This document shows positions 8,142-12,962 of a DNA stretch of 64,000 nucleotides, piece after piece. The first letter of the stretch is position 1. Each line of letters begins with the position of its first letter. The notes below the pieces were generated by a model that saw only the letters and a list, made by a program, of their open reading frames with translations, did no database searches and was not told the origin of the DNA. Origin of the DNA: Micromonospora sp. WMMD980 (GTDB taxonomy: Bacteria; Actinomycetota; Actinomycetes; Mycobacteriales; Micromonosporaceae). A program made the position numbers and the translations under genes. Location of the stretch: positions 5,766,001-5,830,000 of the forward strand of contig NZ_JARUBE010000003.1 of assembly GCF_029626035.1 (NCBI RefSeq), written 5' to 3'.

Positions 8142-8228
8142 GGTGGCGTGTCCGAGTGGCCTAAGGAGCACGCCTCGAAAGCGTGTGAGGGTTTACGCCC
8201 TCCGCGGGTTCAAATCCCGCCGCCACCG
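8142..8228 (+). tRNA. tRNA-Ser (anticodon CGA)
   Basis: The acceptor stem GGTGGCG pairs with CGCCACC, followed by discriminator G. The anticodon arm CACGC-CTCGAAA-GCGTG gives anticodon CGA. A long variable arm (GAGGG/CCCTC) and GGTTCAAATCC T-loop confirm a class II serine tRNA. CCA is not encoded. Confidence 0.97.
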
Positions 8229-8243
8229 CTCGTGAACAGCGAG

Positions 8244-8281
8244 AACGCCCGGTGTGACCCGTGCGGGTCACACCGGGCGTT
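8244..8281. terminator. strong hairpin between tRNA-Ser and the sigma-factor gene
   Basis: A perfect 17-bp stem (arms 8244-8260 and 8265-8281, beginning AACGCCCGG) with a GTGC loop lies 15 bases past the tRNA and 14 bases past the convergent sigma-factor stop. It can end transcription from both sides. There is no U-run, as is usual in actinobacteria. Confidence 0.85.
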
Positions 8282-8295
8282 CCGTGTCCACGGGG

Positions 8296-8880
8296 TCAGT
8301 TCCCGGTGAAGTCCTCGCCGAGCAGCGCGCGGATCCGGCCCAACGCCCGGGCGTCGCGCATCTTCACCGCCGAGACGGACAGCCCAACGATCTTGGCGAC
8401 GGCGGCGACGCTCTGGTCCTCCCAGTGCCGCAGCACCACGATCGCCTGGTCCCGGACGGGCAGCGTCGCCAGCGCGGTCATCAGCGCGACGTGCAGTTCC
8501 GGATTCGGCTCCGGTTCCGAACGGTCGGGCGGCTCCGCGCAGACCACCTCGGTGCCGCTGCGCCGTCGCCGCTGGTCGAAGAGGGCGTTCACGAGCACCC
8601 GTCGGCTGTACGCGTCGAGGTTCGCGCTCTGCCGGATGCGACCCCAGGAGGCGTACATGCGGGTGAACGTGATCTGGGTCAGGTCCTGGGCGAGGTGCCA
8701 GTCCCGGCACATGAGGTAGGCGGTGCGTCTCAGTCGGGGCGCGCTCGCCGCGACGAACGCGCTGAAGTCCTCGTCTTGGACGTCACGCTCGCGTCGGCGG
8801 GCGATTCTCCACCGGGCCAGCGGGCCGGGCTGACGTTCGGCGGCCGGCGGGGCGCAGACGTCGACCTGCCCGCTGCTCAC
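8296..8880 (-). CDS. SigE-family RNA polymerase sigma factor (sigma-70, ECF type)
   Basis: The protein is up to 194 residues. Region 2 is FSAFVAASAPRLRRTAY through the AQDLTQITFTRMY segment, and region 4 is LPVRDQAIVVLRHWEDQSVAAVAKIVG followed by a recognition helix LSVSAVKMRDARAL. This is the SigE-family ECF type common in actinomycetes. The GTG at 8880 overlaps the TGA of the upstream membrane gene (GTGA), indicating translational coupling; it leaves about 30 basic residues before region 2, so a later start cannot be ruled out. Promoter targets are unknown. The order, membrane partner first and sigma second, is the reverse of the usual sigma/anti-sigma pair. Confidence 0.88.
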   Translation of the reverse strand: MSSGQVDVCAPPAAERQPGPLARWRIARRRERDVQDEDFSAFVAASAPRLRRTAYLMCRDWHLAQDLTQITFTRMYASWGRIRQSANLDAYSRRVLVNALFDQRRRRSGTEVVCAEPPDRSEPEPNPELHVALMTALATLPVRDQAIVVLRHWEDQSVAAVAKIVGLSVSAVKMRDARALGRIRALLGEDFTGN

Positions 8881-9485
8881 TCGCCCTCCCCGGAACCGGT
8901 GCGGAACGCGCAGGGGTTGGCCGCGATCTGGTCCACGCCGCTCGCGTCGCGAAACTTCGCCGCGAGCCGCGCGTAGTCCGCCGTCCGCACCAGCTCGACC
9001 TGGAAGGACTCGGGAAGCTGCTCCGGTTCCACTGAGCCGACCAGATCCGGGTTGTCCTGGTAGGACTCCTTGAACCTGGCGTACGCCTCGTCGTGACCCT
9101 GGAACGTCACGCGCCGCACCGGCGGGTACGACTGGAGCGCAGCGCGCAGGTCGAGGCGCTGCTGATCGGTGACGTCCTGCCGCAGGAAGATCCGAGCGTC
9201 GACCGGCTCGCGTCGCATCTGGGGGCTGCACGCGGGGTCCGTGGACGGCTCTGGTGCTCCGATCGCCGCCGGTGGCACCGGCTCCGGGGATGTCGGTGTC
9301 AGGTTCAGGGCGACCAGGGTGGCGGCGATCGCGACGAGGCCGGCCGTCGCGCCGCCCGCGAGCAGGCCACGCCTGCGCCGCAGCGCGGTGCCCGCCACCA
9401 TGGCCTCCCGGGCCAGTTCCCCGGTCGGGGGCGCGGGTCCGGCGCCGAGTGCCCGCTCGAAGAGCACGTGCAGGTTCTGGTCCAC
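8877..9485 (-). CDS. membrane protein with FtsX-like extracellular domain, coupled to sigma factor
   Basis: The 202-residue protein has a cytoplasmic N-terminus of about 45 residues (MDQNLHVLFERALG), one transmembrane helix (GGATAGLVAIAATLVALNL), a Pro-rich spacer, and an outside domain from about residue 95 on. That domain, with ARIFLRQDVTDQQRLDLRAA, VRRVTFQGHDEAYARFKESY and PESFQVELV, resembles the extracellular domain of the cell-division protein FtsX, including its conserved order of strand, helix and PxSF-like segment. The FtsX permease helices are absent. The overlap with the sigma gene suggests a membrane regulator, possibly an anti-sigma-like sensor. That role is inferred and not known for the family. 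Confidence 0.75.
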   Translation of the reverse strand: MDQNLHVLFERALGAGPAPPTGELAREAMVAGTALRRRRGLLAGGATAGLVAIAATLVALNLTPTSPEPVPPAAIGAPEPSTDPACSPQMRREPVDARIFLRQDVTDQQRLDLRAALQSYPPVRRVTFQGHDEAYARFKESYQDNPDLVGSVEPEQLPESFQVELVRTADYARLAAKFRDASGVDQIAANPCAFRTGSGEGE

Positions 9486-9555
9486 AGCTCGCTCCTGTTT
9501 CCGATGGCTTCCCTCTTTAGGACTGGTCGGGACGCCGGATCGGTCACATCTCCGG

Positions 9556-10086
9556 TCAGCAGGGACCGTAGCCCTCGTCGAAGAAGCGGCGGGCCCAGTT
9601 CGCGTACCCGGCGATGATCTTGCGGACGGTGACGCCGTCGTGCAGGAACAGGTAGGCGCGGTCGCCGGCGCGGGCGAGCAGCCCGGCGAAGCGGTGGCTG
9701 CCGGGCGGCGCCGGCAGCGCGACGGTGTCGGGGTACGCGGCGCGCGCCTCGGCGATCGGCGTGCCCGCGCCGATGCCCTCCGGCGTGGTCATCGGGTCGT
9801 CGAGCCAGAGCAGTACGAGCCGGTCGTCGACGAAGATCGGGCTGACCGAGCCGTGCCCGGCGAGCGTGGGCCCGCACGCCTCCTCGTCGGTGCGCAGCAG
9901 GCCGCGCCGGGTGAGGTCCTCCTCGGTGGCGCCGAACTCCGCGTTGCGCAGGCCGTCCAGGCCGACCACCTCGGCGGAGCCGACCGGGCGGGCCGGGATG
10001 TCCGACCCCTGTGGATGGACGCCGCTCCCGGCGACGGAAGCGGCGGCGAGCAGCGTGGCGATAAAGACGAATTGTCGCAATTTCAT
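9556..10086 (-). CDS. secreted protein of unknown function
   Basis: The 176-residue product begins MKLRQFVFIATLLAAASVAGS, a clear signal peptide. The mature part contains GLDGLRNAEFGATEEDLTRRG, two cysteines (EEACGPTL and the C-terminal GYGPC) likely to form a disulfide, and a segment FGATEEDL...GTPIAEARAAYP that resembles the repeated motifs of secreted actinobacterial proteins of unknown function. It follows the next gene by eight bases and precedes the FtsX-domain/sigma pair by 70, so all four may be one transcription unit. Confidence 0.7.
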   Translation of the reverse strand: MKLRQFVFIATLLAAASVAGSGVHPQGSDIPARPVGSAEVVGLDGLRNAEFGATEEDLTRRGLLRTDEEACGPTLAGHGSVSPIFVDDRLVLLWLDDPMTTPEGIGAGTPIAEARAAYPDTVALPAPPGSHRFAGLLARAGDRAYLFLHDGVTVRKIIAGYANWARRFFDEGYGPC

Positions 10087-10094
10087 GTAATCCC

Positions 10095-10697
10095 CTAGTC
10101 CCCAACGGGGCCGGGGCGAAGAGGTTGCTGGTGCGGGCCGGATTGGCGCAGTTCCCACTCGTCGGCCAGATCGTCCCAATAGTCGGCGGACAGCCCGCGC
10201 CGGCCGTGCGCCAGCCAGCCGGCCGTGTCCCGCTCCAGATGCAGGCCCAACTCGGCGAACGGGTCGAGCCACGCGCCCGGCTCGACACCGAGTCGGGCCA
10301 GCGCCGCGTTGATCGGCCATTCGACGCGCGGTCGGTCCAGGACGCCGTCGTGGCGCGGCCCCCAGCTCACCTCGCCGTCCAGCCACGCCACCGCCGCCTG
10401 GTGGCCGAGCCCGCCGGCGAACTCCGCCTCCAGGTATGCCACCGGCCCGCGCCTCGACCAGCGGGCCAGCGTCTCCGCCAGCGGCGGCGAGAGAACCAGC
10501 CGGAACGGACGCACGGCGCACGGCTCGTCGGCGGCGAAGTCCGGCGGGCTGCCGGTCAGCTCCTCCACGAGCTGCGGGGTGACCGGCAGCAGCGCGAAGT
10601 CCTGGCGGAGCGCGGCCAGCACCGCGTGATCGAGGTCGGCGGTCTGCTCGCGCAACAGCTCGATGTCGGCGACCACGGCGCTGAGCTGGTAACTCAT
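10095..10697 (-). CDS. hypothetical protein
   Basis: A 200-residue soluble acidic protein beginning MSYQLSAVVADIELLREQT. I recognise no family. Segments such as VEWPINAALARLGV and YWDDLADEWELRQSG suggest an alpha/beta fold of the kind found in uncharacterised actinobacterial proteins. ATG 10697 is supported by GAGAGGA five bases upstream. It is the first gene of the leftward unit ending in the sigma factor, and a palindromic promoter-region element lies 14 bases upstream (10711-10742). Confidence 0.7.
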   Translation of the reverse strand: MSYQLSAVVADIELLREQTADLDHAVLAALRQDFALLPVTPQLVEELTGSPPDFAADEPCAVRPFRLVLSPPLAETLARWSRRGPVAYLEAEFAGGLGHQAAVAWLDGEVSWGPRHDGVLDRPRVEWPINAALARLGVEPGAWLDPFAELGLHLERDTAGWLAHGRRGLSADYWDDLADEWELRQSGPHQQPLRPGPVGD

Positions 10698-11198: not shown

Positions 11199-12962
11199 TC
11201 ACCACGCGGACATGTCGGGAAGCTGGTCGATCGAGATGGTCCTGGGGTTGGCCATCGCGGTGCGCCACAGCCCGGCCACGTCCTTGCCGCTGCCGTTCCA
11301 GTCGCGCGACGCCCAGACCACGAAGTACGGCCAGGCCGGGTCGGAGTTCGGGTTGAGCGGGCTGAACGTCTCCGCCACGCCGGTGGTCTTGGCGCCGCTG
11401 ACCGCCTTGGTGGTGGCGAAGTCGCCGCTGCTCTGGAAGTAGTCGGAGGTGACCAGGTCGACGTAGCCGTCGCCCGGGTACCAGGACGCCAGCGAGGTGC
11501 CCTGGCCGCTGGCCATGCCGTTGAACACCCAGACGATGTTGTGCGCGCCGGCGAGCTGGGCCCGCTGGTAGATCAGCCGCCAGAGCTGCTTGTAGGCGTC
11601 CTGGCCCTTCTTCGCCCACCACATGTAGTTGTTGTTCGCCTCGTGCAGCGGGCGGAACAGCACCGGCACGCCGGCGTCGCCCATCTTCTTCAGCTCCCGC
11701 ACCACCAGGTCGATGTCCTGGTAGAGCTTCGACGACGGGTTGTTCAGGTCGGGCTGGAAGTCGCAGGGTGCGGAGTAGTTGCCGCCGCGCGGGCAGTACC
11801 AGTGCCACTGGAACGCGACGATGCCGTTGCGGGCCTTGGCCCAGTCGATTTCCTGCTGGGTCTGGATGCTGCCCTGGGTGTACTCCATGAAGTCGAACGC
11901 CACGATCGCCGGATAGCGGCCGGTCAACTGCTGCACCCGGTCCGCGTCCGGCAGGTCGGTCTGGCCGCTGACGTAGGTGTGCGTGCGCAGGTAGCAGATC
12001 AGGTTGCGGGCCTTCGAGTTCGCCTGCGGGTCGGCCGGGGCCTGGCCGCAGTCCGGGCCGGGCGGGGTGGGCGGCTTCACCGCGTACACCTCGAACTCGT
12101 AGAGCGAGTAACCCCAGGCGGTGCCGCGGGCGGTGCCGGACATCCGCACGTACCGGCCGCTGGCGCCGGCCGGCGTCACGTCGTCGGTGCCGCCGTCGCC
12201 GGTGGTGGTGCTGAACACTGAGGTCCAGGTGGTGCCGTCCGTCGAGGTCTGGATCTGGTACGCCCTGCCGTACGCGGCCTCCCAGCGCAGCCGCACCGTG
12301 TTGATCGGGTACGTGGCGCCGAGGTCGACCTGGATCCACTGCGGGTCGGCGTAGAGGCTGGACCAGCGGGTGCCGCCGTTGCCGTCGACCGCCTGGCCGG
12401 CGGCGTGCGGGCTCTCCGTGGACGACGCGGTGACCGGTCGGTTGAGCGCGAGGTTGCCGCTGGGGGTGGTGGTCGGGTCGGGGCTCGCCGTCGGGCTCGG
12501 GCTGCCGGTCGGGCTCGGGCTGCCGGTCGGGCTGGGTGGTGTGGTGTCGCCGCAGCTCGCGCCGTTGAGCGTAAACGCGGTCGGGGCCGCGTTCGACCCG
12601 GTGTAGGTGACGTTGAAGCCGAAGCTGACCGTGCCGCCGGCCGGGAGGCCCGCGTTGTAGGAGACGTTCGTGGCGGTGGCGTTCGCGCCGGACTGGGTCT
12701 TCGTCGCGTTCCACATGTCGCCGATCACCTGGTTGCCGGGGAACGCCCAGCCCAGCGTCCAGCCGTTCACGGTGGCGCCGGTGTTGGTGATGGTGACGTT
12801 GGTGGTGGCGCCGCCGCTCCATTCGTTGGTGACCTGCCAGGTCACCGAGCAGGCGCCGGCGGCGGCCTGGGCGGGTGGCGTGGTGACGAGGGCGGTGGCC
12901 AGCGCGGTGACGGCTGCCGCCGCCCCGGCCAGGCACGCCCGTGTGCGGGTGCGCTGGATCAT
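11199..12962 (-). CDS. secreted GH26 beta-mannanase with CBM2 and F5/8-type C modules
   Basis: The 587-residue enzyme has a signal peptide ending near TPPAQA-A (residue 34), a CBM2 cellulose-binding module between Cys38 and Cys137 with surface Trp residues, a PSPTGS-repeat linker, an F5/8 type C (CBM32-like) module at about 168-292 (ALNRPVTASST, WIQVDLG), and a GH26 domain from about 305 to the end. The acid/base Glu is in VLFRPLHEANNNY; a Glu in GVAETFS is the candidate nucleophile. It should cut beta-1,4-mannan in plant biomass outside the cell. It is monocistronic, with a palindromic operator candidate about 110 bases upstream of the ATG. Confidence 0.92.
   Translation of the reverse strand: MIQRTRTRACLAGAAAAVTALATALVTTPPAQAAAGACSVTWQVTNEWSGGATTNVTITNTGATVNGWTLGWAFPGNQVIGDMWNATKTQSGANATATNVSYNAGLPAGGTVSFGFNVTYTGSNAAPTAFTLNGASCGDTTPPSPTGSPSPTGSPSPTASPDPTTTPSGNLALNRPVTASSTESPHAAGQAVDGNGGTRWSSLYADPQWIQVDLGATYPINTVRLRWEAAYGRAYQIQTSTDGTTWTSVFSTTTGDGGTDDVTPAGASGRYVRMSGTARGTAWGYSLYEFEVYAVKPPTPPGPDCGQAPADPQANSKARNLICYLRTHTYVSGQTDLPDADRVQQLTGRYPAIVAFDFMEYTQGSIQTQQEIDWAKARNGIVAFQWHWYCPRGGNYSAPCDFQPDLNNPSSKLYQDIDLVVRELKKMGDAGVPVLFRPLHEANNNYMWWAKKGQDAYKQLWRLIYQRAQLAGAHNIVWVFNGMASGQGTSLASWYPGDGYVDLVTSDYFQSSGDFATTKAVSGAKTTGVAETFSPLNPNSDPAWPYFVVWASRDWNGSGKDVAGLWRTAMANPRTISIDQLPDMSAW

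Follow-up and report, generated by a model that had tools for sequence, protein, structure and literature searches.

A two-gene unit of a soil bacterium probably couples the outer part of FtsX to a transcription factor

In the soil bacterium Micromonospora sp. WMMD980, a two-gene unit probably couples the outer part of the cell-division protein FtsX to a transcription factor. This part elsewhere contacts enzymes that cut the cell wall, and the condition of the wall might in this way switch genes on. The unit lies on the minus strand of the window, the term used here for the whole 64,000-nucleotide stretch of DNA that was analysed. The first gene of the operon (8877..9485) encodes a membrane protein of 202 residues, here called the sensor, which carries an FtsX extracellular domain (ECD) and lacks a permease part. 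Residues 1-42 (9360..9485), with the pattern LRxxFxxA..EP..GDLAxxAMxxGxxxRRRR, are predicted to form a cytoplasmic arm and are proposed to contact the sigma factor. A predicted transmembrane (TM) segment follows at about residues 43-62 (9300..9359; hydropathy maximum from residue ~41), and the FtsX-type domain occupies 8910..9230, with C86 and C192 at its flanks and a helical lobe at about residues 131-161. The second gene (8296..8880) encodes an ECF sigma factor of the SigE family (TIGR02983) with 194 residues and regions 2 and 4, the start codon of which overlaps the sensor stop codon in the sequence GTGA (8877..8880). A bipartite promoter-like motif, TGTGACCGAT-N13-CAGTC, is located on the same strand at 9521..9548, 35 nt from the sensor start codon. 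The sigma gene is followed by a tRNA-Ser gene, and the frame upstream of the sensor (9556-10188) matches no Pfam family.

The preliminary description had read the outer part of the sensor as an FtsX-type extracellular domain detached from the permease, and the analysis bears this out. The ectodomain matches Pfam PF18075 with an E value of 9.6e-20, the Pfam search detects no permease domain in the sensor, and the best structural matches of the sensor fold are solved FtsX extracellular domains, so that the fold comparison suggested at that time agrees with the reading. The TM segment is of low confidence in the AlphaFold model. The lack of an FtsE partner is also confirmed: the neighbours are the sigma gene, the tRNA-Ser gene and the frame without a Pfam match, with no FtsE ATPase next to the sensor, and the genuine FtsE-FtsX of the same genome is located elsewhere and intact. 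In the helical lobe (131-161), 58% of the residues (18/31) are identical to those of the FtsX of the same genome, compared with 30% (19/63) in the ectodomain outside the lobe. This lobe of FtsX binds PcsB in pneumococcus and is implicated in the contact with RipC in M. tuberculosis, as described in an excerpt of PMC6355983. FtsX proteins compared with one another follow the same trend (57% in the lobe versus 47% in the rest), which indicates that conservation of the lobe alone is no proof of a shared ligand.

The sigma factor scores 152.1 bits against TIGR02983 (cut-off 141.55) and carries the Pfam domains Sigma70_r2 and r4_2; its assignment to the SigE family and the GTGA overlap with the sensor stop had thus been described correctly. 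Of the 34 loci collected for the pair, 31 have a sigma start codon at this overlap of 4 bases, the exceptions being L008 (1-base overlap), L023 (no overlap) and L014 (the sensor frame runs on). Alternative sigma starts are available at some loci and the N-terminal part of the sigma factor varies in length, yet the start at the overlap is kept. In L014, the sensor frame passes the usual stop and GTGA is present at the homologous place, out of frame, which, judged from the sequence, is a frame change or a sequencing error.

Directly downstream of the sensor and on the same strand, a SigE-like sigma gene is present in all 34 clade-A loci examined, which come from 33 Micromonosporaceae genomes; the search for the pair in related genomes, proposed earlier as a check, therefore recovers it throughout. 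The loci comprise the 30 best matches from 150 genomes of the family (the window's own included), three further loci that matched across arm and domain and one from a later search; the count is a lower bound of at least 34, with at most 21 candidates scored per genome, and one locus (L030) ends at a contig end. Within the genus the distribution is patchy, with the pair in 4 of 23 sampled genomes among the matches listed; Micromonospora humi and M. maritima are named close relatives that bear it. No match spanning the arm is found outside the family among the matches listed for a class sample of 293 genomes and an order sample of ~171 genomes (200 less 29 family members), where clade-A-like matches are expected at the top. 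In the flanks of 1.5-2 kb, other gene families recur in at most 6 of the 34 loci, and only within subgroups, which gives the two genes the appearance of a unit. Over 28 pairs, sensor distances correlate with sigma distances at r 0.78, a value reached in none of 2000 permutations and partly due to shared descent. A single genome (G140) holds two sensor-sigma pairs (L024 and L114), which belong to different subgroups of the sigma tree. Another match of non-FtsX length, in a 273-codon frame, was observed in the genus (G138:C9:166755-167117).

Conservation within the sensor is highest in the arm, with a mean pairwise identity of 54% for residues 1-40, compared with 39% for the TM segment, 24% for the linker and 41% for residues 86-192. 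Residues that are invariant in 28/28 aligned sensors include F9, P17, G32, R36, C86 and C192, and cysteine is absent from the arm in these 28 members. The run-on frame L014 and the contig-edge locus L030 were excluded from the sensor alignments and the arm profile, and L014 from the sigma set as well. In the AlphaFold model, the arm consists of two short helices of low confidence. No known anti-sigma domain, of the zinc or the classical type, is recognised in the sensor, as the Pfam search at E values up to 1 returns only FtsX_ECD.

Eleven sigma factors of the same genome exceed the TIGR02983 cut-off. Seven of these 11, as well as two sigmas below the cut-off, have a TM-bearing partner frame downstream that begins on the sigma stop; two sigmas have no TM frame beside them, and L038 has only an upstream frame of another kind. 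The window pair runs in the reverse order of these nine sigma-first partner loci, in agreement with the earlier remark that a sensor preceding its sigma factor is unusual. A profile of arm and TM segment matches four of the downstream SigE-family partners at E values from 1.3e-7 to 7e-4 (1075 ORFs), and the sensor itself is the sole match among 1696 control ORFs. The arm-only profile gives two partner matches (3e-4 and 0.014), and reversed-sequence controls give one match at 0.014 with the TM segment and one at 0.037 without it. The sensor arm thus appears to resemble, weakly, the arms of four other SigE-family partners. In one of the four (L041), beta-propeller repeats exceed the Pfam cut-off; the other three match no family above a cut-off.

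The upstream regions of 29 loci, that is, the clade-A operons with enough upstream sequence, align on TGTGACCGA(T/A)-N13-C(A/C)GTC or variants, and the strict pattern at fixed spacing precedes 21 of these 29 operons. The only exact match of TGTGACCGAT-N13-CAGTC in the window's own genome is the window's own site; with up to two mismatches, the genome contains 53 matches, one of them exact, and the reversed pattern gives 9. The exact motif, which was derived from the operon of the pair, occurs 14 times in 21 pair-bearing genomes, 12 of them at that operon, and the reversed control gives 0. With up to one mismatch, 45 places are found in 31 pair-bearing genomes (reversed control, 6), of which 17 are at the operon of the pair. 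Seven of the remaining 28 places represent one identical site, which, in the 3 loci read, is antisense in a frame that resembles a catalase-peroxidase. Genome G126 (L143, L154) has a near-motif site in three identical copies, perhaps within a repeated element. Nine bases separate the end of the motif from the chosen start in L022, L026 and L027, a spacing that would be compatible with a leaderless message. The conservation of the motif and its rarity elsewhere suggest that the operon is autoregulated from this candidate promoter, and use of the promoter by the sigma factor is proposed on the basis of the two-part form of the motif and its conservation with the pair. No regulon emerged from the motif searches in the own genome and the 31 pair-bearing genomes; strict matches are nearly confined to the operon of the pair, which means that no regulon backs an envelope role.

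It is very probable that the sensor regulates its sigma factor in some way, and an anti-sigma-like sensor within an autoregulated cassette is, by a modest lead over even odds, the form that we favour. In this proposal, the two genes would constitute an autoregulated signalling cassette, with the sensor in the membrane, where its arm of 42 residues would face the cytoplasm and its FtsX-type domain the outside. The arm would most likely keep the sigma factor inactive, as a non-classical anti-sigma. The most plausible input to the ectodomain would be a peptidoglycan hydrolase, or its adaptor, docking at or leaving the helical lobe, the part employed by genuine FtsX, although a ligand of this kind is put forward tentatively. 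A change in the ectodomain would alter the arm or open the sensor to proteolysis, and the freed sigma factor would transcribe its own operon and a further regulon. The proposal is favoured by the commonest ECF arrangement, a co-transcribed membrane partner that sequesters the sigma factor (excerpt of PMC8999054), and by a receptor precedent, the anti-sigma RsiV, which binds lysozyme and controls SigV (excerpt of PMC4183432). As for the functional coupling advanced in the preliminary description, the link itself is supported by the kept overlap, the upstream motif, the arm and the repeated linkage to SigE-like factors, whereas the anti-sigma role and the sensing of the envelope are what we still infer.

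Solo FtsX-ECD proteins also adjoin other sigma factors. At seven further loci, such a protein lies beside a SigE-like sigma gene in the opposite gene order (L108-L111 in another family of the class; L116, L119 and L120 in the same family). TIGR02983 is the best NCBIfam family for the six opposite-order sigmas tested, with only that of L108 over the cut-off. In the sigma tree, the FtsX-linked sigmas scatter, some of them beside own-genome sigmas with other partners. A single clade of all FtsX-linked sigmas is rejected by the AU test (p 6e-37), as are clades of A with B2 (4e-9), A with B3 (8e-86) and B2 with B3 (0.011), and A with B1 is not rejected (0.09); the split into B1-B3 was made after the first tree had been seen, which weakens these p-values. 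Six long-branch own-genome sigmas and the partial B_L111 of the 56-row tree were omitted from the test. FtsX-ECD proteins thus adjoin sigma factors of at least three lineages. The ECD tree is too short to resolve, with FtsX and solo rows falling among the clade-A rows, so the number of domain uptakes from FtsX, or of moves between partners, is not readable from it.

Of the own-genome partners, L049 alone stands out from noise in matches to the arm of L119 (E 9e-6); it is the partner of a sigma factor near that of L119 in the tree. The matches to L048 (0.017) and L044 (0.05) are mixed with noise frames, which score 0.03-0.08, and the arms of B1 and B2 match no own-genome partner above noise. 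One tentative account is that the arm follows the sigma factor while the ectodomain is swapped, the FtsX ECD having been taken up at least three times to give receptors that would report the occupancy of cell-wall hydrolases or adaptors to transcription, in parallel to FtsEX.

Solo FtsX-ECD proteins with no sigma match within ~2 kb on either side also exist (e.g., L115, L121 and L124-L127), which indicates that the domain has a role apart from sigma factors as well, and several solo proteins have a lipobox-like cysteine by eye. Such proteins, one of which (L117) has two copies of the domain, favour an alternative in which the FtsX-domain protein is an output, acting as a decoy or co-regulator for the peptidoglycan hydrolases that depend on FtsEX and sharing an operon with the sigma factor that drives it; the retained helical lobe and the first position of the sensor gene in the operon are likewise in its favour. 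However, the cytoplasmic arm is better conserved than the ectodomain, and a decoy needs no arm that weakly resembles those of four SigE-family partners, one of them a beta-propeller protein; this alternative is considered rather unlikely. The solo frames of L121 and L124-L127 (~1950-2450) have 141 codons, appear lipoprotein-like by eye and all come from a single genus of the family; the ~4.3 kb covered at each locus contains no sigma match. Tandem FtsX-type domains, in one frame or in neighbouring frames, were observed in L117 (1648-2394), L123 (1617-3347) and L122 (1898-2939).

A second alternative reverses the sign of control: the sensor would serve as a co-activator or membrane tether, with the arm positioning or activating a sigma factor that requires it. 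The sensor gene coming first with its stop overlapped by the sigma start, together with the lack of a recognised anti-sigma domain, would suit such a role, but the commonest ECF partner is a co-transcribed membrane protein that sequesters (PMC8999054, in excerpt), and we regard this alternative as improbable.

Slightly less probable again is a redox sensor, in which a putative C86-C192 disulphide could close the domain and provide the signal input. Both cysteines are invariant in the 28 aligned sequences, and 10 FtsX ECDs lack cysteine both in the domain and in the 15 residues on either side of it. Against this, disulphides of exported proteins are often merely structural, and C86 and C192 are in low-confidence parts of the AlphaFold model. 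Additionally, the M. tuberculosis FtsX ECD contains a disulphide too (PMC6355983, in excerpt); in the aligned stretch, the cysteines of M. tuberculosis FtsX are inside the domain and not at its flanks. An ordinary truncated FtsX lying beside a sigma gene by chance, to which the NCBIfam FtsX models covering only the extracellular domain of the sensor (FtsX_actino, 49.7 bits against a cut-off of 250) would correspond, is in effect ruled out by the 34/34 pairs and the separate intact FtsEX, and the protein has its own arm, cysteines and upstream motif.

With the anti-sigma-like sensor as the preferred reading, the pair is of a known kind, an ECF sigma factor with a membrane partner, and its new aspects are the FtsX-type ectodomain and the reversed gene order. 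The sensor shares PF18075, the fold and helical lobe residues with FtsX ECL1 (4n8n, 6he6, 6tpi) and differs from FtsX in its single predicted TM helix, the absence of FtsE, the two flanking cysteines and the sigma partner. As in other SigE-family (TIGR02983) systems with membrane partners, the sigma factor is over the cut-off and the partner has a short arm, an Arg-rich stretch, a TM segment and an ectodomain; the start-stop overlap is alike in the nine other loci of the genome, from which the pair differs in its FtsX-type ectodomain and sensor-then-sigma order. RsiV-SigV of Bacillus subtilis provides a parallel in function, in which a membrane regulator controls an ECF sigma factor, and the ectodomain here would similarly read a cell-wall-cutting enzyme; binding and proteolysis are demonstrated for RsiV (excerpt of PMC4183432) and are proposed for the sensor. 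The CU044_5270 family (NF038083) matches the sensor weakly over the arm and TM segment (residues 25-78, E 0.074), and the score of 12.9 bits against a cut-off of 100 indicates that the sensor is not a member. No FtsX-domain/sigma pair appears in the titles and abstract openings of the papers retrieved on FtsX with ECF sigma (from 2012) or an anti-sigma factor, and no literature was found on CU044_5270 or on an ECF group with an anti-sigma factor in Micromonospora.

A domain with which FtsX contacts cell-wall hydrolases or adaptors, here joined to a transcription factor, would allow the state of the hydrolases to act directly, and in a testable way, on gene expression, and the predicted promoter lends itself to a simple reporter assay. 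The pair also hints at a modular logic among a large set of sigma factors in actinobacteria, of which this genome alone has 11 above the cut-off, and solo FtsX-domain proteins risk being annotated as FtsX.

Scans of the region for sigma-70 promoters and T-run terminators gave no matches, the latter also returning nothing at a perfect 19-bp inverted repeat with a 2-nt loop (8243..8282), which separates the sigma stop from the tRNA-Ser(CGA) gene at 8142-8229 and is perhaps a candidate two-way terminator. The repeat includes GGTGTGACC, which resembles the first half of the upstream motif. Elsewhere in the window, the frame at 11199-12962 on the minus strand resembles, by eye, a secreted mannanase with carbohydrate-binding modules.
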